From a virus, in the IMG/VR virus record IMGVR_UViG_3300050014_000489, positions 1-39,257 of that record: DNA of 39,257 nucleotides. One strand, written 5' to 3'. The position numbers and the translations under genes are program-made. The stretch's first letter is position 1; each line of letters starts with the position of its first letter. The notes beneath the pieces are model-generated. The model had not been told where the DNA came from. It ran no database searches and saw nothing but the letters and a program-made list of their open reading frames with translations. Positions 8,114-20,453 of the stretch are shown here, one piece after another.

Positions 8114-8509
8114 ATGACTCAAAAAACCCCAACTCCATCCATCAACCTTGCATCACTCCCTCCCGTGGGCGCTGATCTGGACGGCGGAGCCTTCTCTGGC
8201 ATCACCACACGAAAAAACGGTACCCACTGCGCAGTGGTCTTACTGCCAGAGCAAGGCGAAAAGCTCACCCACAAGAAGGCTATGAACTGGGCCAAAAAAC
8301 TGGGTGCGGAACTGCCTAGCCGCCCTGTTGCTGCTCTGCTCTTCGCCAATTTGAAAACCAAGCTTCGCCCGAACTGGCACTGGACCAGCGATGAAGACGA
8401 CGCTTCCTTCGCTTGGAGTTGCTACTTCACCCTCGGCAATCAGCACAGCTTCCGCAAGAGCTCCGAAGGCTCGGCTGTTGCCGTCCGCTTGATTCCCCTC
8501 ACCGCTTAA
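8114..8509 (+). CDS. DGR-A target protein 1, DUF1566-like C-type lectin
   Basis: 131 residues. The C-terminal half has the DUF1566/C-type-lectin pattern common in DGR targets: MNWAKKLGAELPSRPVAALLF, W-H-W-T-S, then the variable segment D-A-S-F-A-W-S-C-Y-F-T-L-G-N-Q-H-S-F-R, and the fixed tail KSSEGSAVAVR. The variable repeat occupies 8400-8488 and matches TR-A except at template adenines. No signal peptide or membrane segment is seen. It is homologous to target 2 over about 100 residues, indicating duplication. The function of the displayed surface is unknown. Confidence 0.9.
   Translation: MTQKTPTPSINLASLPPVGADLDGGAFSGITTRKNGTHCAVVLLPEQGEKLTHKKAMNWAKKLGAELPSRPVAALLFANLKTKLRPNWHWTSDEDDASFAWSCYFTLGNQHSFRKSSEGSAVAVRLIPLTA
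8400..8488 (+). repeat. DGR-A variable repeat VR1
   Basis: 89 bp aligned without gaps to TR-A (9715-9803). I count 11 mismatches, all where TR-A has A: Tyr TAC to TTC, AAT to AGT, AAC to TAC, AAC to ACC, AAC to CTC, AAC to CAC, AAC to AGC, AAC to TTC, CAC to CGC. The last 33 bp (AAGAGCTCCGAAGG onward to GTCCGC) are invariant and would contain the initiation-of-mutagenic-homing site. Confidence 0.95.
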
Positions 8510-8524
8510 TTCTTTAATCCTTTT
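8506..8524 (+). repeat. Downstream spacer repeat, copy 1
   Basis: TTAATTCTTTAATCCTTTT directly after VR1; recurs at 9002-9020 after VR2 with one mismatch. It marks the extent of the target-gene duplication or is a conserved post-VR element. Confidence 0.6.
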
Positions 8525-8540
8525 TTTTCAGGAGCCAACC

Positions 8541-8996
8541 ATGCCCGCCATCACCCTAGAGTCCATCCAGACTAAACAAACCGAGCTAGCTGCATTGATC
8601 CAGCAATTGCTTCAGACAGCGCAGGTCACCCAGATCGAAATAGACGGCTGCACTATCGAACTACAACCCGGCGAACGCTATTCCGGCGCTGTGTTGGATG
8701 AGTTCGGCCAGCACATGCACCACCTGGTGCTAATGGCCCAGCGGCCAAAAATCAAGCTAACTTGGCAGCCCGCTATGGATTGGGCCGAAGAAGTGGGCGG
8801 CACCCTGCCTACTCGTCAGGAGCAAGCCCTGCTCTATGCCAATTGCAAACCCCACATCAAGCCCGAATGGCACTGGTCCTGCGAGACGCACAAGGATGAC
8901 GCTTCCTACGCTTGGGGTTGCCACTTCGACGTCGGCCATCAGGACTACTACCTCAAGAGCTCCGAAGGCTCGGCTGTTGCCGTCCGCAGAGTCTGA
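8541..8996 (+). CDS. DGR-A target protein 2, DUF1566-like C-type lectin
   Basis: 151 residues with a strong AGGAG 7 bases before ATG 8541. Residues 1-45 form a helix with Gln-rich ends and a short strand pair not present in target 1. From about residue 50 it parallels target 1: MDWAEEVGGTLPTRQEQALLY, EWHWSCE, then variable D-A-S-Y-A-W-G-C-H-F-D-V-G-H-Q-D-Y-Y-L and KSSEGSAVAVR close to the C-terminus. No export signal is visible. The variable repeat is at 8899-8990. Two targets served by one template in tandem are known but uncommon in DGRs. Confidence 0.9.
   Translation: MPAITLESIQTKQTELAALIQQLLQTAQVTQIEIDGCTIELQPGERYSGAVLDEFGQHMHHLVLMAQRPKIKLTWQPAMDWAEEVGGTLPTRQEQALLYANCKPHIKPEWHWSCETHKDDASYAWGCHFDVGHQDYYLKSSEGSAVAVRRV
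8899..8990 (+). repeat. DGR-A variable repeat VR2
   Basis: 92 bp, ungapped match to TR-A 9715-9806. Eleven mismatches, all at template adenines: AAT to GGT, AAC to CAC, AAC to GAC, AAC to GTC, AAT to CAT, AAC to GAC, AAC to TAC twice, CAC to CTC. It shares the invariant 3' tail and three more bases (AGA) with TR-A than VR1 does. Confidence 0.95.
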
Positions 8997-9001
8997 TTCC
9001 T

Positions 9002-9020
9002 TTAATTCTTCAATCCTTTT
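9002..9020 (+). repeat. Downstream spacer repeat, copy 2
   Basis: TTAATTCTTCAATCCTTTT after VR2, 18 of 19 identical to 8506-8524. Confidence 0.6.
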
Positions 9021-9031
9021 CATCACGCGAC

Positions 9032-9160
9032 ATGAAAAAACTATCACTCATTGATCGGGTACTGACCAAAGTTCCCGGATCTGCGACCTTTTGGGCTCGC
9101 ACCACATGGATTCTGATCGGCGCAGTGATCGTCATCAGCGTTCTTTCAATCCTCCATTAA
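9032..9160 (+). CDS. 42-residue single-pass membrane peptide in DGR-A
   Basis: A short ORF from ATG 9032 encodes a basic N-terminus (MKKLSLIDRVLTKVPG) followed by one transmembrane helix at residues about 24-40 (TTWILIGAVIVISVLSIL). It lies between target 2 and the Avd-like gene, in a 180-base space otherwise empty. No clear Shine-Dalgarno is seen, so translation is uncertain. A role in anchoring or export of target proteins is conceivable but unsupported. Confidence 0.45.
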   Translation: MKKLSLIDRVLTKVPGSATFWARTTWILIGAVIVISVLSILH

Positions 9161-9178
9161 TTGAACTGATCCGCCACC

Positions 9179-9541
9179 ATGGCACTGCACACCGATCTAC
9201 CGATCTACCGCACTGGCGTGCGCCTGCTTGACCTCGCGGTCAGAGCCCAGGTACAAATGCCGCGCACCGTCAAACGTGCGTTGGGCGAAAAGATCACCCA
9301 GCACTGCGTTGAAATGCTGGACCTGATGGCCCTGGCCAACGCCACACAGCGTGATACCCGCGCAGGACATATCAACCAGCTACTGACCCGCCAGCGGGCG
9401 ATCACGGTCCTGCTACGCGTCAGCCACGATGCCCGGTATATCTCACCCAAGCTGTGGGCAGACTCTATCGAGCTACTGGGCAGTGTCGGTAAGCAGGCTG
9501 GTGGTTGGCTCAAAACAGTGAACAGGGCGCCTGCTGTATGA
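9179..9541 (+). CDS. avd: DGR-A accessory variability determinant (Avd-like)
   Basis: A 120-residue, almost all-helical protein with four predicted helices (LLDLAVRAQVQ; RALGEKITQHCVEMLDLMALAN; INQLLTRQRAITVLLRVSHD; LWADSIELLGSVGKQAGGWLK), as in the four-helix-bundle Avd/23S-IVP-like family. The basic residues suit nucleic-acid and RT binding. Avd partners with the DGR RT to copy the template RNA mutagenically. Its stop overlaps an ATG in the RT frame (ATGA at 9538), directly upstream of TR-A. The position between targets and TR is typical. Confidence 0.8.
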   Translation: MALHTDLPIYRTGVRLLDLAVRAQVQMPRTVKRALGEKITQHCVEMLDLMALANATQRDTRAGHINQLLTRQRAITVLLRVSHDARYISPKLWADSIELLGSVGKQAGGWLKTVNRAPAV

Positions 9542-10899
9542 CGGTCAAGGCCCTCATACCCGTGCGCATGGTGAATCTGGTCGCGCCGCTGACCCATAAG
9601 GTCACCGACATGCATACCACGGAGACCGCTGCCACCGTGCAGGCCCGGTCCGGTGCAGCCTCCTGTCTGATCGGCTCCGGCCTTCGGACAGATGGCCTAC
9701 ATAGCGCGATGGGTACGCTTCCTACGCTTGGAATTGCAACTTCAACAACGGCAATCAGAACAACAACCACAAGAGCTCCGAAGGCTCGGCTGTTGCCGTC
9801 CGCAGATCCATACCTGTTCCACCAACTGGTGCAGGCCTACCTTGATTGCCGCCGCACCAAGCGCAATAGCGCCAGTGCGATGACTTTCGAGGACCAGGCC
9901 GAGCACAACCTCTACCAACTCTATGAAGAACTCGCCTCTGGCACCTACCAGCCGGGGCGATCCGTCTGCTTTGTCATCACCCACCCCAGGCCACGCGAGG
10001 TGTGGGCTGCACGCTTTCGCGACCGCATCGTGCACCATCTTCTGTACAACCACATTGCGCCGCGTTTTCACGCCCGCTTTGTGGCCGACAGTTGCGCCTG
10101 CATTCCCGGCCGGGGAACGCTCTATGCCGCCAAGCGGCTGGAGCACCAGGTACGCAGCCACACCCACAACTGGAGCCGACCGGCGCACTACCTCAAGTGC
10201 GACCTGGCCAACTTCTTCGTCAGCATCGACAAGACGGTAGTGCTGGAGCAGCTGCAGCGCCAGGTAACCGAGCCGTGGTGGATGTCGCTGGCCGAGGTCA
10301 TCCTGATGCACGACCCACGAAACGACGTGGAGGTGCGTGGCACCCGCGCTGAGCTGGCCCTGGTGCCACCCCACAAGCGCCTATTCAACGCCCCGCACGG
10401 CTACGGCCTGCCCATTGGCAACCTTAGCAGCCAGTTCTTTGCCAACGTGCTGCTGGACGACCTGGACCAGTTCGCCAAGCACCGCCTGCCTGCGCCCCAC
10501 TACGTGCGCTATGTGGATGACTTTGTGCTGTTGCACGACAGTACCCAGTGGCTCAACCAGGCGCGTGAACGCATCGAGGCCAAGCTGGCCGACCTACACC
10601 TGCAGCTCAACCCGCGCAAGACCGTGCTGCAGCCCATTGCGCGCGGTATCGACTTTGTGGGCCACCTGGTCAAGCCCTGGCGGCGCATCACCCGGCGCAG
10701 GACGGTGAACGTCGCACTAGACCGCCTGCAGGACATACCTGCTGCCGATCTGCACCAGAGCGCCAACAGCTATTTCGGCCTGCTACGGCAAGCCAGCCAC
10801 AGCCACCACGACCGCACCCGTATTGCCAGCCTGCTGTTGCAGCGTGGGCATGTCGTCAAGGGTGATTTCACTAAAACTTATCGGAGAACGAAGTCATGA
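9538..10899 (+). CDS. DGR-A reverse transcriptase
   Basis: The RT frame is open from ATG 9538 (overlapping the Avd stop) to 10899, 453 residues. RT motifs begin after about residue 95: VWAARFRDRIVHHLL, ADSCACIPGRGTLYAA, YLKCDLANFFVSID (motif A), the DGR-typical LPIGNLSSQFFAN, the catalytic YVRYVDDF (YVDD at 10510-10521), and GIDFVGHLV. TR-A lies inside this frame, in a phase other than the VR phase, at residues about 60-90. True translation may start at 9538, at ATG 9709 or farther down; no site has a good Shine-Dalgarno. The next gene overlaps its stop (ATGA). It is distinct in sequence from the DGR-B RT. Confidence 0.9.
   Translation: MTVKALIPVRMVNLVAPLTHKVTDMHTTETAATVQARSGAASCLIGSGLRTDGLHSAMGTLPTLGIATSTTAIRTTTTRAPKARLLPSADPYLFHQLVQAYLDCRRTKRNSASAMTFEDQAEHNLYQLYEELASGTYQPGRSVCFVITHPRPREVWAARFRDRIVHHLLYNHIAPRFHARFVADSCACIPGRGTLYAAKRLEHQVRSHTHNWSRPAHYLKCDLANFFVSIDKTVVLEQLQRQVTEPWWMSLAEVILMHDPRNDVEVRGTRAELALVPPHKRLFNAPHGYGLPIGNLSSQFFANVLLDDLDQFAKHRLPAPHYVRYVDDFVLLHDSTQWLNQARERIEAKLADLHLQLNPRKTVLQPIARGIDFVGHLVKPWRRITRRRTVNVALDRLQDIPAADLHQSANSYFGLLRQASHSHHDRTRIASLLLQRGHVVKGDFTKTYRRTKS
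9715..9806 (+). repeat. DGR-A template repeat TR-A
   Basis: 92 bp rich in AAC/AAT codons (when read in the VR phase: W-N-C-N-F-N-N-G-N-Q-N-N-N-H-K). It contains 27 adenines, and all 22 mismatches with VR1 and VR2 fall on them. The fixed 3' part has a CCGA-AGGC-TCGG mini-hairpin. It is located between the Avd-like gene and the conserved RT motifs. Confidence 0.95.
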
Positions 10900-13031
10900 A
10901 AGAATACTCAACTACATCGGGCGCGGCCCTGCCCGAGTCCGCGCACGAGATCATCGACTTCTCCCTTGACCTGATCATTGCAAGTCGCACCAACCCGCGC
11001 ACCACATTCGACCCGGCCTATTTGAATGAACTGGCTGTAACCATCAAGCCAGCGGGGCGCGTGCTGCAGCCTATTTTGCTGCGCCCACTGCCATCCAGCA
11101 GGCTTGAAGAAACCGCACATATGCGACCCCGCCCAACACATGAAATTGTGTTTGGCGAATGCCGGTACCGGAGCAGCAAGATCGCCGAAATGAAGACCAT
11201 CCGGGCGACCGTGGAACACCTGACGGACGCCGAAGTTTTAGTCATCCAACTGATTGAAAACCTCAAGCGCAAAGACCTCAGTGAGTTGGAGGAGGCTAAA
11301 GGCTACAGCCGCATGATGGATGAAGCAGACATGTCTGTCGACAGCATTGCTAAGGAAATCGACAAGAGCCGAAGCTACGTCTTTGGTCGAATGAAGCTGC
11401 TCGACTTGTGCAGTGAGGCCCGTGCCAGCCTGAGCGACGGCACCATTGACGCCAGCCGCGCCCTGGTAGTGGCCCGCATCCCCGACCACAAGCTGCAGAT
11501 CAAGGCGATGAAAGAGATCGTCGCAGGGCATGGCTACTACGGCAACGGGGCCAAAGACCCCATGAGCTACCGTGAGGCACTGCTGCACATCCAGAACAAC
11601 TACATGCTCAAGCTGAGCGATGCCAAGTTCAAAATCACCAGCATCGAACTGGTACCCGCTGCCGGCAGTTGCAAAACCTGTACCAAGCGCACCGGCCACG
11701 ACCCTGACCTGTTCAGCGACGTAAAGGGTGCAGACGTCTGTACTGACCCACCGTGCTTCCACAAGAAGGAAGAAGCCCATGCCGCCACCCTGGTTAAAGA
11801 AGCGAAGGACAAGGGCCAGACTGTCATTGCGGGCAAGGAAGCCCAGGAGCTGATGACGACTGGCTATAACGCCAAGTTCAAGGGCTACAGGCGCTTGGAC
11901 ATGGCCGAAGACAGCCCGACCGATCAGCCGCTGCGCAAGATCATCGGCAAGCAAATGCAGACCGAGGGCATCAGTCCAGTGATGATCGAGCACCCGCAAA
12001 AGAAGGGTGAACTAATTGCAACGCTCCCTAATGAAGTGGTCTTGCGCCTCCTCAAGACCGTAGAAGGTCAGGCCCAAGCCACCAAGACGGTAGCAAAAGA
12101 GGTACGCGAGTTCGCCGACGAGAAAAAATCCAAGGCCGATGCCAAAGCAAAAGAGCGGTACGAACAAGACTGGCGCGACCAGCTCGTGTCCCGCACATTT
12201 GAAGTCATGCAACGATCTGACGACATCGTGATGGCGTTCAACACCGAAGTGCACCGCTATGTTGCACTCAAAACTGCCAGCAATCTCAGTACAGAGCAAT
12301 CTGCCAAGCTGGCCCAGCTGCTTGGCCTCGGCAAGGTAGGAACGCACAGCGCAGTGCTTGATCACATCAAGACCAGCGAGCAGCCCGACATGATCCACAT
12401 GTTAATGATCATGGTTCGAGACAGCAGTGCGAACGACTTTTCATACAGCGATCGCATTGCTAACGAAGGAATGCACCTGGTGGCAGGAATTGTGTTCGGT
12501 AGTGAGCTGAAAGCCACAACCAAAGATATTCAAGCCCACTCCCTGGCTAAGTTTTTCCCTAAGGTTAAGGAAGAAAAAGCAGTTACCACTAACGCCCCTG
12601 CTGCGCTGGCTATCGCTAGCGCGGGGGAGGTTTCCAAGGGTCAGGGGGTCAAAGGCCCCGCTGCGCCGGCGAGCGTTGCCCCGCTGCGCAAACGCAAACT
12701 CTCGGCGGGTGAAGCCCAGGCCGCTATCGCGGCCGCGATGCAGGATCAGGATACCGAACCAGGTGCCGCTGATGCGTCACAGGGCGACGAAGCGAGTCCT
12801 GTGCCGGTCAGTGGCTTCGCCCTGCCCGTGGGCGCGCGTGTGCAGATACAGGCTGAATATGCGGGCCTTAGCCTGACCCTGCAAAAGTGGGCCGAAAAGA
12901 AAGGTGTCATCACCGCTAAAGACATCCCCACTGATGGATCGCTGTTCGCAAAATTTGACGTGACATTCAGAGGCCGCAACGGCGGCGTGGCCACGTTCTA
13001 CGCGCATCAATTCAAGGTGCTTCCATCATGA
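10896..13031 (+). CDS. ParB/RepB-like nuclease-fold DNA-binding protein
   Basis: 711 residues. The N-terminal ParB domain shows IASRTNPRTTFD, VLQPILLRP, then HEIVFGECRYRSSKIAE (ParB box) and VIQLIENLKRKDLSELEEAKGY. A helix-turn-helix follows (SVDSIAKEIDKSRSYVFGRMKLL). A Cys cluster (C-K-T-C ... C-T-D-P-P-C-F-H) suggests a zinc site near residues 255-290. A charged coiled region follows, and the C-terminal about 60 residues (VGARVQIQ... FDVTFRGRNGG) look like a small beta domain. No ParA gene is present, so a plasmid-partition role is not indicated; phage ParB-like proteins may act in transcription or host takeover. The start overlaps the RT stop. Confidence 0.8.
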   Translation: MKEYSTTSGAALPESAHEIIDFSLDLIIASRTNPRTTFDPAYLNELAVTIKPAGRVLQPILLRPLPSSRLEETAHMRPRPTHEIVFGECRYRSSKIAEMKTIRATVEHLTDAEVLVIQLIENLKRKDLSELEEAKGYSRMMDEADMSVDSIAKEIDKSRSYVFGRMKLLDLCSEARASLSDGTIDASRALVVARIPDHKLQIKAMKEIVAGHGYYGNGAKDPMSYREALLHIQNNYMLKLSDAKFKITSIELVPAAGSCKTCTKRTGHDPDLFSDVKGADVCTDPPCFHKKEEAHAATLVKEAKDKGQTVIAGKEAQELMTTGYNAKFKGYRRLDMAEDSPTDQPLRKIIGKQMQTEGISPVMIEHPQKKGELIATLPNEVVLRLLKTVEGQAQATKTVAKEVREFADEKKSKADAKAKERYEQDWRDQLVSRTFEVMQRSDDIVMAFNTEVHRYVALKTASNLSTEQSAKLAQLLGLGKVGTHSAVLDHIKTSEQPDMIHMLMIMVRDSSANDFSYSDRIANEGMHLVAGIVFGSELKATTKDIQAHSLAKFFPKVKEEKAVTTNAPAALAIASAGEVSKGQGVKGPAAPASVAPLRKRKLSAGEAQAAIAAAMQDQDTEPGAADASQGDEASPVPVSGFALPVGARVQIQAEYAGLSLTLQKWAEKKGVITAKDIPTDGSLFAKFDVTFRGRNGGVATFYAHQFKVLPS

Positions 13032-13528
13032 GCGGCCATAAACCCCGCCGCCCACGCTGGCTACCAACCGGCCACACCATGGCGATCGCCCTGAACCTGG
13101 CTGCCAAGCCCGACCCTGCCGACATCGAGCAGATCCTCCAGGCCATCACCGACGCTGTACGGGCGTTGCGTGAAGGCGTGGCCAGCGAGCATCAGTGGTC
13201 CATCGTCGCAGGATCCGTCGACGTGGCTCGCGCCATCGAGCGCCAGGGCGTGGTGCGCGGCCTGCACGAGCACCTGGACAGCGCCGACAGCGCCCTGAAG
13301 TCCATCCGCACCCGCGCCCTGTCAACCGGGCGCTGGGCGCCTACCCTCCTGCACTATTTCGAGATCGATGCTATGCAAGCATTCATTGGTCTGCACACTT
13401 TTCAGACCCGCCAGCTCAGCCGTGCCGAATACCGGCGCGCCATTGACAGCGCGACCGGCGAGATCCGGGGCACCGGCAGCCATGTGACGCGGATCGAGAT
13501 TCAGGATTTTGTGGGATTGCCAGCATGA
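13028..13528 (+). CDS. Conserved-type phage early protein
   Basis: 166 residues, coupled by overlap on both sides. A basic N-terminus (GHKPRRPRWLPTGH) is followed by a mainly helical protein (DIEQILQAITDAVRALREG; VARAIERQGVVRGLHEHL; HYFEIDAMQAFIGLHTFQTRQLSRAEYRRAI). It resembles hypothetical early proteins of betaproteobacterial temperate phages; no function is known to me. Confidence 0.6.
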   Translation: MSGHKPRRPRWLPTGHTMAIALNLAAKPDPADIEQILQAITDAVRALREGVASEHQWSIVAGSVDVARAIERQGVVRGLHEHLDSADSALKSIRTRALSTGRWAPTLLHYFEIDAMQAFIGLHTFQTRQLSRAEYRRAIDSATGEIRGTGSHVTRIEIQDFVGLPA

Positions 13529-13836
13529 CTCAAACGAGTACTCGCCACCGCATCTACGTCGCCGGACCCATGACCGGCCTGCACCAACTCAACTTTCCAG
13601 CCTTTCACGCTGAGTCTGCCCGCCTGCGTGCTCTGGGCCATGAGGTAATCAACCCGGCTGAGCTCAACCCTGATCCATGCATGACCTGGCATGACTGCAT
13701 GCGCCGCGACATCGCTGCTCTGGTGACCTGCAGCGCCATCCGTTTGCTGCCCGGCTGGCAGGACAGCAAGGGCGCGACGCTGGAGCATCACATCGCCGAT
13801 CGGCTGGGTTTGCTGATTCTTGGGGTGGCTTCATGA
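13525..13836 (+). CDS. DUF4406-like protein (nucleoside deoxyribosyltransferase fold)
   Basis: 103 residues with the family pattern RIYVAGPMTGLHQLNFPAF, then LRALGHEVINPAEL, CMRRDIAALVTCSAIRLLPGWQDSKGATLEHHIAD. GWxxSxGAxxE is the characteristic loop. The fold is related to nucleoside 2-deoxyribosyltransferases, so a nucleotide-related role is plausible; the substrate is unknown. ATGA overlaps at both ends. Confidence 0.8.
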   Translation: MTQTSTRHRIYVAGPMTGLHQLNFPAFHAESARLRALGHEVINPAELNPDPCMTWHDCMRRDIAALVTCSAIRLLPGWQDSKGATLEHHIADRLGLLILGVAS

Positions 13837-14108
13837 AAGATATCCTCACCGAAGAAGAGGTCGCCGACATCCTGGGCTGCGAGGTCCAGACCATTCAGGA
13901 AAAAGCGCGAACGGGCGAACTACCCGGCGTCAAGTATGGGCGACCCTGGCGCTTTCCGCGTACAGCGCTGCTGGAATGCCTACATGAGAAAGCCATGGCC
14001 AACAAACCCAAAGTCGTCGCTACGCCGACAGCGGTGGCCGTGACATTGGCGACGGCCAAGCCACACAGCCAGGCCTCGCGTAGGCCGCCAGCGCTGCCCC
14101 CGCACTAG
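13833..14108 (+). CDS. xis: Excisionase-like HTH protein
   Basis: 91 residues with an N-terminal MerR/HTH_17-type domain: ILTEEEVADILGCEVQTIQEKARTGELPGVKYGRPWRFPRTALLECL. This is the helix-wing pattern of AlpA/excisionase proteins, followed by a Thr/Ala/Pro-rich tail. It is the last gene of the rightward early operon and faces the integrase with a 4-base 3' overlap, the usual site for a recombination directionality factor. Function is inferred from family and context. Confidence 0.7.
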   Translation: MKDILTEEEVADILGCEVQTIQEKARTGELPGVKYGRPWRFPRTALLECLHEKAMANKPKVVATPTAVAVTLATAKPHSQASRRPPALPPH

Positions 14109-15247
14109 CCGAAGCGTGCGCTCAGATCCTCGCCGCGCAGGCTGGCATACCGCAGCACCATCTTGGTGTCTGACCAACCCATAATCCTGCAAATCTCCAG
14201 CTCGCTGAACATCCAGCCACGCTCGTTGCGCAGCTCGAACCACCTGCAGGTGGCCTCGTGCCGGAGGTCGTGCTCGGTGAAATTCGGCACCGTGGCAAAT
14301 TCAAACAGCGTCTTGAACCGTGCCGACAGCTTGGATGTAGTCTTGGGCCGCTGCTCTTTGGAGCCATCCCAGAATGGAAAGATCAAACCCACTCGACCGG
14401 CGCACCATGCGCGCAAGGGCTCTCGCAGTGACGGCTTGATAGGCACCACACGCGGCTTACTGGCGCCCCTGTGGCCTTTGGACCCTTCAACATTGATGAT
14501 GTTGCGCTGCAGGTCAATCATGTCAGCGCGCAACCGGAACGCCTCGAACAAGCGCAGGCCGGTGTCCACAATCACCGAGTACAGTAAAGTGAATGCGGGG
14601 TCTTCGAGCAGCGCGCGCTCGCGCCCTTCGCGCTTGATGCCAGCCAAGGCTGCGCGGATCCGCAGGTCATCACTGGCGGACAGGCGCTGATCGCGCGCCA
14701 CATCCCGTTTGGCTTCGACCAGCTCGCTGTCGGTCTTGCTGTAGCTACTGTACCCACGCGGCAACAGACGCAAGGGGTTGGCCAGCGGCGTAGCGCCATC
14801 CAGCGTGGTACTGTTGATGTGCCAGTCCAGCACCCGCCCCAGCACGCCGATGCGCTTGCGGATGGTAGAGGGCACCAGGTGCATCTCGGGTGACTTGAGC
14901 CACTTGACGTAGCCCTCGACCCAGCGAAACGTCAGCATCGAGAGACGCAGGCCGACCACCGGCTGGTCTTGGAGCACCACATCGAGCAGCGCATCGTCCG
15001 AGTCGGTCAGCACCGCCGACTGCTGTGTATACGCGCGCACTACCTCCAGCAGCAGAAAATCACCTGGTGTTTGTGTCGGGGTTAGCAACTCTTGCGGCAC
15101 GATGCCACGGGCCAGTAAGGCTTCAAGCTGGGCGCCATAACTACGCGCCTCGATCTCAGTGGGGAATGTGAAGAAAAATGGCTTGGGCAGCAGTGTGTGC
15201 TTGACCCGGAGCTGAAACTTGTCACCGCGCGGTTGGATGCTGGCCAT
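14105..15247 (-). CDS. int: Tyrosine-family site-specific integrase
   Basis: 380 residues. The N-terminal arm-binding domain is short (IQPRGDKFQLRVKH). A core-binding region follows, and the catalytic domain has the Arg I context (VDTGLRLFEAFRLR), Lys in EGSKGHRGASKPRVVP, H-x-x-R (FTEHDLRHEATCRW), and the final IMGWSDTKMVLRYASL with the nucleophile Tyr. ATG 15247 is preferred over the longer ORF because GGGAG lies 8 bases upstream and the domain starts there. It is convergent with the excisionase-like gene and adjacent to a half tRNA-Cys, which identifies the target. It catalyses integration into the host tRNA-Cys gene. Confidence 0.92.
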   Translation of the reverse strand: MASIQPRGDKFQLRVKHTLLPKPFFFTFPTEIEARSYGAQLEALLARGIVPQELLTPTQTPGDFLLLEVVRAYTQQSAVLTDSDDALLDVVLQDQPVVGLRLSMLTFRWVEGYVKWLKSPEMHLVPSTIRKRIGVLGRVLDWHINSTTLDGATPLANPLRLLPRGYSSYSKTDSELVEAKRDVARDQRLSASDDLRIRAALAGIKREGRERALLEDPAFTLLYSVIVDTGLRLFEAFRLRADMIDLQRNIINVEGSKGHRGASKPRVVPIKPSLREPLRAWCAGRVGLIFPFWDGSKEQRPKTTSKLSARFKTLFEFATVPNFTEHDLRHEATCRWFELRNERGWMFSELEICRIMGWSDTKMVLRYASLRGEDLSARFG

Positions 15248-15374
15248 GATGGTCTCCCAAAACAGCGCGCATCTTACTCGACTCGACGGACAAATCGATC
15301 CGTAGGCCGGTAGCATTGCTACCTTTTTGAGGTAGCAGCGAACCGTTTTGAGCCTTTTTGAACCCGTAAACGAA

Positions 15375-15405
15375 AAAGCCCGCTATCTTTTCAGTAGCGG
15401 GCTTT
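15375..15405. terminator. Bidirectional intrinsic terminator
   Basis: Perfect 11-bp stem AAAGCCCGCTA/TAGCGGGCTTT with a 9-base loop. It has A/T runs on both sides, stronger on the minus strand (five T). It separates integrase from the late operon. Confidence 0.85.
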
Positions 15406-15427
15406 GCTTATGCCGTAAGGCTTTGAC

Positions 15428-15473
15428 TGGAGGCGCGACCCAGAGTCGAACTGGGCTAGACGGATTTGCAATC
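15428..15473 (-). other. attP: attP core: 3' half of tRNA-Cys(GCA)
   Basis: The minus strand reads from the anticodon loop (GATTGCAAATCCG) through the T-arm (GTTCGACTC) to the 3' CCA, matching the 3' half of a bacterial tRNA-Cys over 46 bases. The sequence upstream of the anticodon stem does not match any tRNA 5' half, and the anticodon stem cannot form, so it is not a tRNA gene. The segment would restore the 3' end of the host gene after integration. Confidence 0.85.
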
Positions 15474-15581
15474 TATATGCAGCCTTATAAATCAATGACT
15501 TACGAAACTGCTACCGTTTTCGCTACCTACGTAATAGATTTACTCTAATCCGTTGCGTAATTCTAGCATTTGGCACAACGC

Positions 15582-15623
15582 AAAAAAAGCCCGCCAAACC
15601 GCGCAATGCGGCCCGGCGGGCTT
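15582..15623 (-). terminator. Late-operon terminator
   Basis: Stem AAGCCCGCC (15587-15595)/GGCGGGCTT (15615-15623) with an inner stem CCGC/GCGG. On the minus strand it is followed by seven T. It lies just after the last lysis gene. Confidence 0.85.
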
Positions 15624-15689
15624 GATTCTTTACACCTGGTGCAAAGCTGGAAACTTGCGGAAATTGTCGATTTGCATAATTTCGCAAAC

Positions 15690-16208
15690 TTAGGGCGATT
15701 GCCGAACATCCTCAATGTCCAGAATCTGATTCACCTGGCTGCTCACTTCGGCATAGCGAGCCCGGCAGACGGCAATGGCACCGGCAACGTCGCGCTCGGT
15801 TGCAAACCGGAGGCCTCTACCAGCGGTAACGGTTGCGGCCGGACCCTCAGATTCGCCGGCAGCGGCTGGCACTGGCTGGTCACTGATGTTGTTGAGCATG
15901 CTGACAGTCCCAGCGCCAAGGCACTCACGGCCAGAAAGTTTTGCAATGTATGCACGGGAATCTCCTAATTTTTGATTGATCACGGCTAAAGCGGCCGCAT
16001 GGGCGGTGGCGGCTTGGTCGCCGGCCAGTCGTTGTCGTTCGGCGTCGATGTCTCGCGCCTTGATTTCAGCCAGTTTGGCGGCATCCCAACTGGCTTGCAC
16101 CTCTATCATCCCGCTGGTGTAGCCGTCATGGTGGATCCACCAGATGCCGCCAGACAGCGCGCAGGCCAGTGCCAACCCAACCCACACGCGCCAGCTCAGC
16201 AGGTCCAT
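15690..16208 (-). CDS. Rz-like inner-membrane spanin
   Basis: 172 residues: an N-terminal signal-anchor (WRVWVGLALACALSGGIWWIH, residues about 6-26), then a long periplasmic helical stretch (WDAAKLAEIKARDIDAERQRLAGDQAATAHAAAL), and a C-terminus ending DIEDVRQSP. This is the i-spanin architecture: with an outer-membrane lipoprotein it fuses the membranes at lysis. The o-spanin is encoded inside this gene in another frame. ATG 16208 overlaps the endolysin stop (TGATG). Confidence 0.85.
   Translation of the reverse strand: MDLLSWRVWVGLALACALSGGIWWIHHDGYTSGMIEVQASWDAAKLAEIKARDIDAERQRLAGDQAATAHAAALAVINQKLGDSRAYIAKLSGRECLGAGTVSMLNNISDQPVPAAAGESEGPAATVTAGRGLRFATERDVAGAIAVCRARYAEVSSQVNQILDIEDVRQSP
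15743..15955 (-). CDS. Rz1-like o-spanin lipoprotein nested in Rz
   Basis: 70 residues in a different frame, wholly inside the Rz gene. It starts at GTG 15955 with AGGAG 7 bases upstream. The signal peptide (LQNFLAVSALALGLSAC) ends in a lipobox L-S-A-C with the lipidated Cys at about residue 20. The mature part is short and Pro-rich (QPLPANLRVRPQPLPLVEAS), as expected of Rz1. Complete nesting as in lambda Rz/Rz1. Confidence 0.85.
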   Translation of the reverse strand: MHTLQNFLAVSALALGLSACSTTSVTSQCQPLPANLRVRPQPLPLVEASGLQPSATLPVPLPSAGLAMPK

Positions 16209-16735
16209 CACGCCAACACCTCTTGCGCTGCCGTATACAACGCGAGCCGGTCAGCCATGCCATTGGTGCCGCCGTTGATGCGCAGAGTAATCCTCGTAAA
16301 GTCACCGGTGTCTGCCATCTCATTCAGGCCGTGAGCCCGCCAGAACCAGGCGGCAGAGCGGGTGGCCAGCTCAGGCTCAGCCAGGCGTAAGGGCTCGGCA
16401 ATCAGATCTACGCCCAGCGCCGCGCCGGTGGCTGCGTAGTTGGCCCGGCCGGTCGTTTGGATCAGACCCCGGCCCTTGAATTTGTAGCCGTCGCCCGCCT
16501 GCGTGTTGCCCAGATCCGCGCGGCCCTCGTAATGCGACTGGGCAATCGTGGGGCCCCAAATCTCGGTGCACCAGTGCAGGCCACCGGATTCGTGGCCGAT
16601 TTGCGCTAAGAACGCAGCCTGGCGTGCCGGCGTATTGATTTCGAACTCATCCATCGCCGCTTCGACGAAGGGAAAAAACTCAGTCGCCCGGTCAATCCGG
16701 GCGCCGGTGGCGCGGGAAAGGTCTTGTGGTGTCAT
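16208..16735 (-). CDS. Endolysin, glycoside hydrolase 19 type
   Basis: 175 residues from ATG 16735 (AAGGA 7 bases upstream; a longer frame to 16762 is unsupported). The chitinase-class-I-like fold is shown by FLAQIGHESGGLHWCTEIWG with the catalytic-type Glu in H-E-S, then GRADLGNTQAGDGYKFKGRGLIQTTGRANY and INGGTNGMADR. These enzymes cleave peptidoglycan glycan strands. No signal peptide, so it depends on the upstream holin(s). It is coupled to Rz. Confidence 0.9.
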   Translation of the reverse strand: MTPQDLSRATGARIDRATEFFPFVEAAMDEFEINTPARQAAFLAQIGHESGGLHWCTEIWGPTIAQSHYEGRADLGNTQAGDGYKFKGRGLIQTTGRANYAATGAALGVDLIAEPLRLAEPELATRSAAWFWRAHGLNEMADTGDFTRITLRINGGTNGMADRLALYTAAQEVLA

Positions 16736-16763
16736 GGTAAATCCTTGGTAAACGATGGGCAAT

Positions 16764-16787
16764 AAAAAACCCGCTCAGAGGCGGGTT
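16764..16787 (-). terminator. Intrinsic terminator between holin and endolysin genes
   Basis: Stem AACCCGC/GCGGGTT with six T following on the minus strand. Internal to the late operon. Confidence 0.8.
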
Positions 16788-16814
16788 GCTGGTAAATACT
16801 TGGAACATGGGCCA

Positions 16815-17177
16815 TTACGGGTTGTCCCCTGCCCTGCGGTTTTTGTACATAGAACATCCTTCTTTCAGTCGGGTCCGGACAATCAGGATGGCAAAGCCCG
16901 CCAGCACCGCGATCTCGGCCAGCGTGGGGCGCTCCAGGCGCATCAATATGGTTGGGATGCTGTGCACACCCAAAGCCAGCAGCACTGGTGTGGCTACAGC
17001 ACCGCCGCCACCCAGGGCCAGCAGCGACCAACCCAGCGCCTTGACTGACTGCACTAGGCGCTCGCAGGCAGTGAGCCCGGCCGCCAGTGGACCGGTGCGC
17101 TCCAATTTATTGAGCGCTTCGGCCAGCACAATCAGGCCGGCGACCCAGTGCAAGGTTTGAATCAGCGCGGCGCTCAT
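16815..17177 (-). CDS. Holin-like membrane protein
   Basis: 120 residues with three hydrophobic segments: residues about 8-23 (LHWVAGLIVLAEAL), 48-75 (LGWSLLALGGGGAVATPVLLALGV), and 88-104 (IAVLAGFAILIV), and a basic C-terminus (RTRLKEG...KNRRAGDN). It lies between another membrane protein and the endolysin, the holin/antiholin position. Its start overlaps the previous stop. Whether it is the holin or the accessory partner cannot be told. Confidence 0.7.
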   Translation of the reverse strand: MSAALIQTLHWVAGLIVLAEALNKLERTGPLAAGLTACERLVQSVKALGWSLLALGGGGAVATPVLLALGVHSIPTILMRLERPTLAEIAVLAGFAILIVRTRLKEGCSMYKNRRAGDNP

Positions 17178-17578
17178 GTCGGCGCTCCCGGCTGCGGTTG
17201 TGGGCCCCGAATCCGAAGGATGGCCGACATGAGCACTTGCTGAGCACCACCGCCCACAGCAAAAGCCACGCCGATTACCAGCGGCTCCGGCAGATTGGCC
17301 ATCAGTAAAACTAGCGGCGTGAGGTAGCCCGCTGTCAAGCTGGATGCCACAGCGACAAACATGCGGCGTAGCGTCGTCCGGATCAGCTCGCGCCAGGTGT
17401 CCCCGGTGGATGGCACGCTGTTAAGCAGGATGATCGCAACGAGTGATCCGAAGAAGCCAGCAATCAGCAGATCAACGCGTAAGCCCAGCGGGATGCCGAG
17501 GACGGTGAGTACCGGAAGAGATACGCTGGTCGCTACAAAAGTAGCGGCGGCCAGCGCAGTGGAGGTAGGCTCAGCCAT
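17174..17578 (-). CDS. Phage holin
   Basis: 134 residues with several membrane segments: VATSVSLPVLTVLGIPL, LLIAGFFGSLVAIILL, MFVAVASSLTAGYLTPLVLLMA, and EPLVIGVAFAVGGGAQQVL. An RELIRTTLRRM loop lies between them, and the Pro-rich C-terminus is cytoplasmic. The layout matches phage holins of the lambda-holin-superfamily type seen in betaproteobacterial prophages. It is first of the lysis cassette, directly downstream of the DGR-B RT. Confidence 0.75.
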   Translation of the reverse strand: MAEPTSTALAAATFVATSVSLPVLTVLGIPLGLRVDLLIAGFFGSLVAIILLNSVPSTGDTWRELIRTTLRRMFVAVASSLTAGYLTPLVLLMANLPEPLVIGVAFAVGGGAQQVLMSAILRIRGPQPQPGAPT

Positions 17579-17617
17579 GACGATGCCCCTCGCCAGCTTG
17601 AATGTGTTTGAGTGCAG

Positions 17618-18649
17618 TCAATTTAAATCTCCGTTGGTGGTTTTGAAAACTTGGTACAGCTCGTTACGCAGCCGCCAGGTGTCAGCGTGCTTTGCATGAG
17701 CGGTGAATGACTTGACCCGGGATGTGACGTCCGTCAAAGTTGCCTCGCCCGCATCAATCTTTTTGCGCAGGTGTCGAATGTCACGCCGGAACATCACAAT
17801 GGCCCGGCGTCTCAGCAGCTTGTGCGTGGGCCAGATCCGGTAGCCCAGCATGTTGATGCCCTGGCTGGCGCGGTGCACGCTCCATTTTGAAAACCACAGG
17901 CCATGCTGTGCAGCGCGGGCCTCGAGCTGGTCGACAAACCATTGCGCCTCCGACTGGCTGGAAAAGATGGCCACGCAGTCATCCATGTAGCGCAGGTAGC
18001 GCTTTACCTTCAACTCACGTTTGATCCATTGGTCCAGCTCATTGCCAAGCAAGTTGGCCAGCCACTGACTTGTGAGGTTTCCGACCGGGATGCCAACGTC
18101 GCCCGGGGTGCTGTCAATGATGGTGTCAAGCACCTGCAGCGTGAGCGGGCAGGCGATCTTGCGCCGGTAGATGCGCTTGAGGTCGGCATGGAGGATGTTT
18201 TTGAAGTAACCTGAAAAATCAGTTTTACCGATCCACATCTCTTCCAGCGGCTGATTCTTGGACATATTGCGAACCCAGCGCTGCAGGCGCGCAACGCCCG
18301 TGTGCACACCCCGGCCCGGCCTGCAGGCGAAAGTGTCTTCGATCATGCAAGCATCCCAAATGGGCTCCAGGATGTTGAGCACGGCGTGCTGCACCACCCG
18401 GTCGCCAAAGGGCGCTGCCAATATCTGCCGGCGCTTGGGTTCAAACACCACAAAGCTGCGGTAGGTGCCCATTTGGTAGCTGCCAGCCAGCAGATGGTGC
18501 TGAATGTTGCCCAGGTGCAGCCACAGGTCACCGGCAAAGGCTTGCACCTCGGCGCGATCGCGCTTGCCGGCCCGGGCGCGCTGGTGCGCCAGCAGCAGAT
18601 TGTCCCAATCTGCAATTTGTTCAATTAAGTTATCGTGTTTTTTTGCCAT
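17618..18649 (-). CDS. brt: DGR-B reverse transcriptase (BPP-1 Brt type)
   Basis: 343 residues from ATG 18649 (MAKKHDNLIEQIADWDNLL), the N-terminus typical of Brt-like RTs. RT motifs: RQILAAPFGDRVVQHAVLN, FACRPGRGVHTG, GKTDFSGYFKNI (motif A), GIPVGNLTSQWLAN (DGR-specific G-N-x-x-S-Q), RYLRYMDDCVAIF (YMDD at 17978-17989), and GINMLGYRIWPTHKLLRR, a segment I recognise from BPP-1 Brt. The frame is open upstream through TR-B to GTG 18937, but that part encodes the TR and a spacer and is probably not translated. The RT copies TR RNA with adenine errors together with Avd. Confidence 0.92.
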   Translation of the reverse strand: MAKKHDNLIEQIADWDNLLLAHQRARAGKRDRAEVQAFAGDLWLHLGNIQHHLLAGSYQMGTYRSFVVFEPKRRQILAAPFGDRVVQHAVLNILEPIWDACMIEDTFACRPGRGVHTGVARLQRWVRNMSKNQPLEEMWIGKTDFSGYFKNILHADLKRIYRRKIACPLTLQVLDTIIDSTPGDVGIPVGNLTSQWLANLLGNELDQWIKRELKVKRYLRYMDDCVAIFSSQSEAQWFVDQLEARAAQHGLWFSKWSVHRASQGINMLGYRIWPTHKLLRRRAIVMFRRDIRHLRKKIDAGEATLTDVTSRVKSFTAHAKHADTWRLRNELYQVFKTTNGDLN

Positions 18650-18799
18650 AAGAGGTGGCGGTGTGCGGCTTGGTATCGCGACACGCCGCCATTTTTTGAT
18701 ATTCGACCTTGCGGCCGGGATAGAGCGGCTGATCCATTGGGATGCAAGGCGCCAGGGACTGCGCCCCGGCGTCACTTTCAAAATTTGCACCATAGTTGC

Positions 18800-18947
18800 A
18801 TCACTGACACCGCGAGTCGTCACATTGCCATTCGCATTCCAAGCATTGGCATTCGTATTCAGAGTGCGAGAGCCCGCGTGGACCCCCTCATTCCAATTGC
18901 CACCGGCGATGGCGTAATGCCAGGCAACGTGGTTCACCTGGCCTCGA
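18800..18947 (-). repeat. DGR-B template repeat TR-B
   Basis: 148 bp aligned without gaps to VR-B at constant offset 607. It encodes (in VR phase) N-H-V-A-W-H-Y-A-I-A-G-G-N-W-N-E-G and later N-T-N-A-N-A-W-N-A-N-G-N, with Asn codons AAC/AAT at the variable positions. About 150 bp of noncoding spacer separate it from the RT start. Confidence 0.95.
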
Positions 18948-18978
18948 AGTCGAAACCCGCCCCAACCTATCGCGGCAA

Positions 18979-19401
18979 TTACTTGCCGGAATCTTTCATG
19001 CTCTTGCGCCAGTGGTGGGCCATGGCGCCGATCTGACGCAAGGTCCCGCCACGGGGAAAGGCTTCACCCGGTGCGCACATGATGTGCCCAACAAAGCGGG
19101 GCGCGATGAGCTTGCGCTCGGCCCCGATTCGCAGCAACGCATTAAGCACCTCAAGGTGATCCACAAAGGCAAAAACCTTTGTTTTAGTGCCTGAGTTGGC
19201 CGCCTGCACTACCAACTCGGGCAACGCAAACAGCGCGCCCTCCAGTCGCGCGCCATAGCGATACCGGTGGCAGCGTGGGATCTTGTCAAGCACCGGCATG
19301 GCAGAAACGATGAGCTGCTCAGCCAACTCCAATAGTCGCAACCGTGGCACACCGTCTGCCCAGCCACTGCCGTGGCTAGGTTGAGAAGCTTCAAGGCTCA
19401 T
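18979..19401 (-). CDS. avd: DGR-B accessory variability determinant (Avd)
   Basis: 140 residues. After a short flexible N-terminus it is a helical bundle: RLLELAEQLIVSAMPVLDKI, GARLEGALFALPELVVQAAN, VFAFVDHLEVLNALLRIGAE, and LRQIGAMAHHWRKSMKDSGK, with the segment KIPRCHRYRYG found in Avd/bAvd relatives. Avd binds the RT and template RNA and is required for mutagenic cDNA synthesis in BPP-1. Its ATG overlaps the stop of the target gene (ATGA at 19398-19401). TR-B starts 31 bases after its stop. Confidence 0.88.
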   Translation of the reverse strand: MSLEASQPSHGSGWADGVPRLRLLELAEQLIVSAMPVLDKIPRCHRYRYGARLEGALFALPELVVQAANSGTKTKVFAFVDHLEVLNALLRIGAERKLIAPRFVGHIMCAPGEAFPRGGTLRQIGAMAHHWRKSMKDSGK

Positions 19402-20453
19402 AGGGAATCACTGACACCGCGAGTCGTCACACTGCCAGTCGCACCCCAAGCAGTGGCAGCCGTATACAGAGTGCGAGAGCCCGCGTGGACCCCCTCACCC
19501 CAATTGCCACCGGCGAGGGCGTAATGCCAGGCAACGTGGTACACCTGGCCTCGATTCTGGGCGGCATCCTGGCCGGTATTGACGACTGTGGCGTCCCAGG
19601 CGTAGGAATTGGTGCTGTTGCCGATGTCAAAGTGGCCAGCAATACGCTCATACAAATTGCCCACAGTGTCCACAAAGTTGGCGCACGATACCGACTTGGC
19701 CACCGCGCCCGTGTTGCACGGCCCGGTGTTGGTGGTCATGGTCCAGGCGGTGTCGTTTGTGGTGTCAACCCCTTGGGGCGCGCCGTAGGCCATCATCAGC
19801 CACTCTTCGAAGGTCGGTTCGCGCATTCCGGCAGCGTGGATACCGCGGTGTGTGTCCAATTCGTTGTAGCCACCAGTGGAGCGCACCGGTGACACGTTGT
19901 AGCGGCTGCCAAACACCACGCTGGGCCAGGTGCCGGATATGACACTGGGGTGGTAAATCATCCCCCACAGTCCCCGCTTGATTTCAGCCATGCCTTCAGG
20001 GCTGGCAAATGGCCGGTGGCCAAGGTCCCACACACTATTTGGCACGATACCGACCGTCGGCGCATAGGCGACCACAAAGGCCTGAGCGATGGGGCGCGTG
20101 CGGCCGACGTGAAAGCCACTGATTTTTCGGCTGTTGGAAGATGTGTAGCCAGTGGGCGCAGTCGCGTTTTTGCTGCATACGATCTTGGCATAACCAGTTG
20201 ACTGTTGCACGGCGTACAGGTAGATGTCGTCGCCGAGAGTGATGACAGAAAAACTGGCATCGTTGTTGCCAGCGAGGTACGGGTTGAACCCCAATACCGC
20301 CGCCAGCAGGTAGCCCTTGCTGTTGCCGCCGATGTTGACCATGCCGGCGGGGATGTCAATCAGATCGCCGCCGCTGTTTTTAACAAAATCGCCCTGGAAG
20401 CTGAAGAAGCCAGCCGCTTGGGCTGGCACTATTAGGATGTCGCCTGATGCCAT
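19398..20453 (-). CDS. mtd: Major-tropism-determinant-like receptor-binding protein (DGR-B target)
   Basis: 351 residues. The N-terminal about 110 residues are beta-rich (ILIVPAQAAGFFSFQ; LIDIPAGMVNI). The rest is a C-type-lectin domain of the Mtd/FGE kind: DLGHRPFASPEGM, GIHAAGMREPTFEEWLMMAYG, FVDTVGNLYERI, then the variable C-terminus GGNWGEGVHAGSRTLY...TTRGVSDSL. Length and layout resemble BPP-1 Mtd (381 residues). In the virion it would sit at the tail-fibre tip and bind the host receptor. It starts by overlap with the preceding fibre-associated gene and is followed by Avd, TR and RT. Confidence 0.88.
   Translation of the reverse strand: MASGDILIVPAQAAGFFSFQGDFVKNSGGDLIDIPAGMVNIGGNSKGYLLAAVLGFNPYLAGNNDASFSVITLGDDIYLYAVQQSTGYAKIVCSKNATAPTGYTSSNSRKISGFHVGRTRPIAQAFVVAYAPTVGIVPNSVWDLGHRPFASPEGMAEIKRGLWGMIYHPSVISGTWPSVVFGSRYNVSPVRSTGGYNELDTHRGIHAAGMREPTFEEWLMMAYGAPQGVDTTNDTAWTMTTNTGPCNTGAVAKSVSCANFVDTVGNLYERIAGHFDIGNSTNSYAWDATVVNTGQDAAQNRGQVYHVAWHYALAGGNWGEGVHAGSRTLYTAATAWGATGSVTTRGVSDSL
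19407..19554 (-). repeat. DGR-B variable repeat VR-B
   Basis: 148 bp, 12 mismatches to TR-B, every one at a template adenine. Changed codons give N to Y, I to L, N to G, N to Y, N to A, N to T, N to G, N to T, N to S. The 3' 24 bp (GACGACTCGCGGTGTCAGTGA region) are identical in TR and VR and end just before the target stop. Confidence 0.95.

Follow-up and report, generated by a model that had tools for sequence, protein, structure and literature searches.

Two diversity-generating retroelements of different architectural classes in one phage genome

The described systems closest to those considered here are the diversity-generating retroelements (DGRs) of Bordetella phage BPP-1 (mtd/avd/TR/brt) and Burkholderia phage Magia (genes 44–47 and 57). 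DGRs of the BPP-1 type have an Mtd-like target with a C-terminal variable repeat (VR), a GRNA hairpin soon after the VR and a spacer RNA between the template repeat (TR) and the reverse transcriptase (RT); the conserved DGR RNA of BPP-1 (RF03022) lies 3' of the TR. For Magia, one DGR with two target genes has been reported, with no class or RNA given (PMC7883833). In Quimbyvirus a single DGR serves a structural target and one in a defence island (PMC8008677), and in the Tentaclin phages nd4 and nd12 a single DGR likewise serves two targets (PMC10743442). The sequence analysed here, referred to as the window, is the whole 39,257-nucleotide (nt) stretch of a bacterial virus (IMG/VR record IMGVR_UViG_3300050014_000489, positions 1–39,257), in which two DGRs, DGR-A and DGR-B, were identified. 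With a probability of roughly 0.7, these are two intact DGRs of two architectural classes in one phage, expected to act independently.

Architecture of the two cassettes

Both cassettes are complete, as originally predicted, at 8114–10899 on the plus strand (DGR-A) and 17618–20453 on the minus strand (DGR-B), each with its target or targets, VR, Avd, TR and an RT with the conserved motif and a YxDD active site. Exactly two RVT_1 matches, RT-A and RT-B, were present in the whole record. Repeats were identified with a scan that permits mismatches solely at template adenines and that recovered, as a positive control, the TR/VR pair annotated in BPP-1. All 34 mismatches over the three VRs were located at TR adenines, including 22 of 22 in DGR-A (P values are hypergeometric). 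Three elements were additional to those originally predicted: the RT-15 RNA (9525–9716), octamer repeats downstream of both DGR-A VRs and a GRNA hairpin downstream of VR-B. The features are listed by position.

8114–8509, plus: DGR-A target 1 (T1), 131 amino acids (aa), Lcl/DUF1566-like, signal peptide not apparent; VR1 at 3' end; phrog_4245; homologues upstream of Avd/RT in relatives
8400–8488, plus: VR1; 11/11 mismatches to TR-A at TR adenines (P=1.2e-7)
8505–8520, plus: two 8-nt repeats, CTTAATTC TTTAATCC, after VR1, candidate target-site element; 8-nt periodicity
8541–8996, plus: DGR-A target 2 (T2), 151 aa, predicted C-type lectin fold with N-terminal helix; PF07603 Lcl_C 1.2e-5, below curated cut-off; AlphaFold predicted local distance difference test (pLDDT) score 95
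8899–8990, plus: VR2; 11/11 mismatches at TR adenines (P=2.4e-7)
8993–9016, plus: three 8-nt repeats, CTGATTCC TTTAATTC TTCAATCC, after VR2; 8-nt periodicity
9179–9541, plus: Avd of DGR-A; PF22296 bAvd 6.5e-11; phrog_3206 7.4e-23
9525–9716, plus: RT-15 structured RNA (RF03018), 5' flank of TR-A; Rfam match 167.3 bits, E=1.3e-40
9715–9806, plus: TR-A, starting where RT-15 stops
9811–10899, plus: conserved core of RT-A; PF00078; phrog_1423 1e-109; IGNLSSQ, YVDD; codon-position signal confined to the core
17618–18649, minus: RT-B; PF00078 4.4e-16; phrog_1423 1.6e-112; VGNLTSQ, YMDD; 39 % identity to BPP-1 Brt
18800–18947, minus: TR-B; all 12 VR-B mismatches at its adenines (P=1.6e-9)
18979–19401, minus: Avd of DGR-B; PF22296 3.6e-9, just under curated cut-off; phrog_3206 1.8e-9
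19362–19377, minus: hairpin AGCCAC(GGCA)GTGGCT, 6-bp stem, 29 nt past VR-B
19398–20453, minus: DGR-B target, Mtd-like tail receptor-binding protein; PF21916 mtd_2nd 1.7e-18; phrog_11262 tail 1.4e-35; PDB Mtd 1yu1 6.7e-7
19407–19554, minus: VR-B; 12/12 mismatches at adenines (P=1.6e-9)

The two DGRs are not copies of each other but belong to two architectural classes. Their RTs are 28 % identical over 298 residues and still homologous, and the Avds and lectin-fold targets are likewise distant homologues; the original description of the two systems as unrelated is therefore too strong. The suggestion that RT-B is nearer to BPP-1 Brt than RT-A is holds in degree (39 % versus 29 % identity). In a tree of 54 RTs, obtained by a quick search with SH-aLRT support only and with several long branches, RT-A and RT-B fell in two supported, separate clades. 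RT-A belongs to a supported clade of 21 rows with Magia, QDWS, phPA-G and prophages of Burkholderiales and Pseudomonas; the RT clade of DGR-A is separate and widespread. RT-B groups with L083–L086, with Chromohalobacter phage YPCBV-1 and, less firmly, with BPP-1.

Class-A and B-like loci were collected by sequence similarity, and the following proportions therefore do not describe a random sample of DGRs. The TR end lies no more than 66 nt from the homologous RT residue in class A (median 23, n=221) and no less than 149 nt from it in B-like loci (median 205, n=84), so the two ranges do not overlap. Two or more targets were present in 160 of 201 distinct class-A cassettes (two VRs in 120, three in 39, four in one and one in 41), as against one of 79 B-like cassettes, which had two. 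The assumption that each phage DGR acts on a single receptor-binding protein consequently does not extend to class A, where about 80 % of distinct cassettes have at least two targets and none, in the cases examined, is recognisably a tail protein.

The cassettes lie on opposite strands, as predicted, and gene neighbours place DGR-A among non-structural genes and DGR-B last in the tail operon. The structural genes form a leftward series that begins with the terminase (38586), continues with capsid, tail sheath, tape measure and baseplate genes and ends in the DGR-B target, and the DGR-B cassette adjoins related baseplate genes in L085–L087. DGR-A is surrounded by replication genes (1446–4079), a ParB-like gene (10896–13031), a MazG/nucleotide-metabolism-like gene and an integrase; because of these neighbours it may be regarded as early, and DGR-B as putatively late. 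DGR-B resembles the BPP-1 system in gene order, in its Mtd-related target with a C-terminal VR, in an Avd located just before the TR, in a TR-to-RT gap of about 190–200 nt, in the GRNA-loop hairpin AGCCAC(GGCA)GTGGCT soon after the VR and in adenine-only changes. DGR-A differs from BPP-1 in the position of its RNA (5'), the absence of a spacer, the number and location of its targets and the element downstream of its VRs.

RNA, repeats and targets of DGR-A

RT-15 is the structured RNA of Rfam family RF03018, whose Rfam row states no DGR role; in the window it adjoins a DGR TR at its 5' end, while RF03022 of BPP-1 is found on the 3' side. Only 11 nt separate TR-A from the first aligned RT residue, leaving no 3' spacer RNA of the BPP-1 kind. 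RT-15 was present in 34 of 34 RT-A records and in none of 16 B-type records, and it stops at the start of the TR wherever both could be placed (the window, L003, L093, L095, L108 and L377). Among 52 pairs predicted from the aligned sequences of 23 loci, 26 had compensatory changes. The link between RT-15 and DGRs is provisionally regarded as new, and an earlier description in the literature is possible.

The RT-A frame is open from 9505, with an ATG at 9538, and its start codon is ambiguous. In most of the closer relatives the frame likewise runs open through RT-15 and the TR (9505–9811), overlapping the Avd stop (ATGA). The TR-A region was considered as a coding part of RT-A and rejected: substitutions by codon position were 0.28/0.31/0.33, compared with 0.24/0.19/0.47 in the RT domain, and the RT-15/TR stretch, having no third-position bias, was treated as RNA. 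RT-A was also considered as a defence-associated RT (DRT) or retron, and its best PADLOC match was a generic RT model; this assignment was rejected because TR/VR pairs are present.

The sequences downstream of the VRs also separate the two classes. An 8-nt tandem repeat (TTCAATCC-like or TTCAGTAA-like) passed threshold after 58.8 % of 396 class-A VRs, compared with 10.3 % after TRs and 1.3 % of shuffles; these percentages are descriptive, as the threshold was set after the repeats had been seen. GRNA hairpins of the described type (PMC3240598) followed 0.5 % of the 396 class-A VRs and 41 % of B-like VRs, VR-B of the window included, and none was found after VR1 or VR2. The 8-nt repeats are thus a candidate target-site mark, and short tandem repeats at VRs may have been described earlier. 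In B-like loci (L083–L092, L205–L284), the GRNA hairpin is often preceded by a tandem repeat of 7 nt (CTGAAAT-like; 33 % versus 1 % of shuffles).

As well as adenine-restricted changes, DGR-A has the RT motifs and Avd partner of a DGR (IGNLSSQ, YVDD; PF22296, 6.5e-11), and T2 has the predicted C-type lectin fold of a DGR target. A search of the PDB with the T2 sequence gave nothing useful, and a fold search succeeded: the T2 model (pLDDT 95) matched the C-terminal domain of Bd2740 (8oks; Z 14.1, root mean square deviation 2.0 over 99 residues) and that of Legionella Lcl (8q4e; Z 12.8, 3.0 over 108 residues). T1 would share this fold by homology, with its VR region modelled at low confidence. 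Third targets of DGR-A were found several kilobases away from the cassette in two loci (L009:3089–3553 and L108:762–1139), so that DGR-A can probably act on remote VRs. Magia provides the closest described parallel: its RT is 58 % identical to RT-A, Avd and RT-15 RNA are in common, and its small lectin-fold targets likewise lie among recombination and regulatory genes. Three adenine-only VRs were found in Magia here, and INPHARED searches with both RTs found no second RT place in this phage. The nd4 and nd12 DGR shares with DGR-A the presence of two targets per TR but differs in that one target has an N-terminal VR and immunoglobulin-like domains, of the virion adhesin type (PMC10743442).

Recurrence of the pairing and alternative explanations

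To place the pairing among other phages, 140 other IMG/VR records fetched via DGR RTs or targets were tested, of which 93 were of RT-A type and many are fragments. Two of the 140 (G016 and G041) contained a further complete DGR, which had an Avd and an adenine-only TR/VR pair of its own. The RT-A cassettes of both fall in the same clade as that of the window, while the RTs of their additional DGRs cluster with Pseudomonas phage Bise and with L205 and not with RT-B; class A has therefore been joined with tail-side DGRs at least three times. The pairing of a class-A DGR with a tail-side DGR is thus rare and recurrent, and independent in G016 and G041. The two RTs matched 159 and 109 INPHARED records, none of which had two RT places, within an E-value limit that could miss very divergent second RTs, and no second DGR RT was found inside the 10 kb flanks of 80 GTDB loci with RT-A (flanks, not whole prophages, were searched). 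In Quimbyvirus, structural and non-structural lectin-fold proteins are both diversified, as in the window, there by one DGR and here by two separate ones (PMC8008677). No published phage with two DGRs was found in a literature search of incomplete coverage, and a term search of the text of a survey of 30,000 DGRs (PMC8144416) found no mention of two DGRs per genome. The arrangement originally called undescribed is accordingly not unique, given G016 and G041, and its novelty with respect to the literature and INPHARED is provisional.

Three further candidates were not accepted. G118 was not counted as a double record, as its extra RT resembles a group II intron RT in sequence and in a far higher RVT_1 score. 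G103 was not counted, because the 291-aa RT fragment next to its complete DGR has no TR/VR of its own; this arrangement (L365, G103 66000–75113) is perhaps a decayed second DGR. An apparent second TR in L004 was a repeated sequence resembling transfer RNA (tRNA), probably an attachment site. In G002, a tRNA-like sequence that lies downstream of the integrase and recurs after about 110 bases (L113:19486–19675) is probably also an attachment site.

A co-occurrence of this kind could arise if the contig were a chimera of two phages with one DGR each. In IMG/VR the record is listed as linear and without end repeats, the structural and early modules resemble different relatives, and the junction between the gene at 17174–17578 and DGR-B is spanned by no fetched relative. 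Yet mosaic exchange of modules is normal in such phages, the early block with DGR-A and the terminase region at the opposite end are both common to the window, G001 and G004, and G002 has the early DGR-A block plus the genes at 16758–17588 at 91 % DNA identity, stopping 30 bases from RT-B. The same kind of pairing is moreover found on other contigs (G016, G041). Gene blocks in common of this kind speak against a simple chimera, though no relative covers every junction, and a chimera is considered very improbable. It is also improbable that one of the DGRs is a dead relic. One-sided decay is plausible once a second system has been acquired, and the start codon of RT-A is ambiguous, but the YxDD frames of both RTs are intact without internal stops, Avd and TR are present in both DGRs, and VR changes are adenine-only, with no background drift. 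Near-identical relatives such as L070 and L075 have in common the TR and about 98 % of the 5' region of the RT and have no identical VR, which suggests that class A is active.

A different alternative concerns function: the DGR-A targets may also be virion or adsorption proteins, with both DGRs tuning host range. Receptor-binding proteins make up most of the phage DGR targets described so far (PMC10743442, PMC8144416), the lectin fold is suited to surface binding, and the authors of the Magia study propose a possible host-range role (PMC7883833). Against this, the targets are mostly of 120–215 aa, without a recognised tail-assembly domain, and adjoining genes are those of replication, recombination, repressor, methylase and integrase. 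Non-structural neighbours were found for the A cassettes of the window, Magia, Haboob, Cruim01 and G016, and in annotated phages they include RecT or Bet, exonuclease, repressor, methyltransferase and integrase genes. A hydrophobic N-terminal stretch, a crude test for secretion, was detected in seven of 472 class-A target open reading frames (ORFs), a set that contains redundant loci as well as some ORFs that are truncated or misread. In G041 a single ORF (L095:6014–7594, minus strand) joins a DHH phosphoesterase domain to the diversified Lcl_C domain. A virion role is therefore judged unlikely, and the neighbours, rare hydrophobic N-termini and DHH fusion favour a non-virion role for the DGR-A targets, putatively as binding proteins that work inside the infected cell.

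Several points weigh against the interpretation of two intact and distinct DGRs with separate roles. About 41 % of DGR-A VRs fall below the octamer threshold, one third have another GC hairpin downstream, and free folding of RT-15 of the window alone gave z = -1.8. DGR-B differs from BPP-1 in its hairpin stem of 6 bp, compared with the 7–10 bp described for phage DGRs (PMC3240598), and in having no gathering-level match to RF03022, so that its 3' RNA is inferred from spacing; its TR-to-RT gap of 193 nt fits the BPP-1 type. The DHH fusion is one case among 472 targets. The early and late assignments are drawn from neighbouring genes, the assembly is supported by sequence comparison, and present activity of both DGRs is presumed from the state of their sequences.

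Proposed mechanism and biological meaning

In the favoured reading of two intact DGRs, mutagenised complementary DNA (cDNA) of TR-B would replace VR-B in the Mtd-like receptor-binding protein and alter host binding, while mutagenised cDNA from the one TR-A would overwrite two small lectin-fold genes among the non-structural genes. The position of RT-15 5' of TR-A, with the RT following almost directly, would be the reverse of BPP-1, whose 3' spacer recruits RT–Avd. Because the TRs, RNAs, RTs, Avds and post-VR sequences differ, DGR-A and DGR-B would not be expected to target each other's VRs, and cross-talk is probably absent. A more far-reaching proposal is tentative, and is held at somewhat under even odds: that DGR-A is a second mechanistic class, in which a 5' RNA recruits RT–Avd, 8-nt repeats mark the targets and small intracellular binding proteins are diversified, for example against host defences or competitors. 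Together with the tail DGR, outside and inside recognition would then be hypermutated independently.

Two targeted-hypermutation systems, expected to be independent, can thus fit in a phage of about 39 kb, and DGRs among non-structural phage genes form a large class with several targets and an RNA of its own. If RT-15 is the class-A DGR RNA, models of cDNA priming from BPP-1, which involve a 3' spacer, do not cover class A. This raises the question of how phages may benefit from hypermutating small lectin-fold proteins that are unlike tail proteins.

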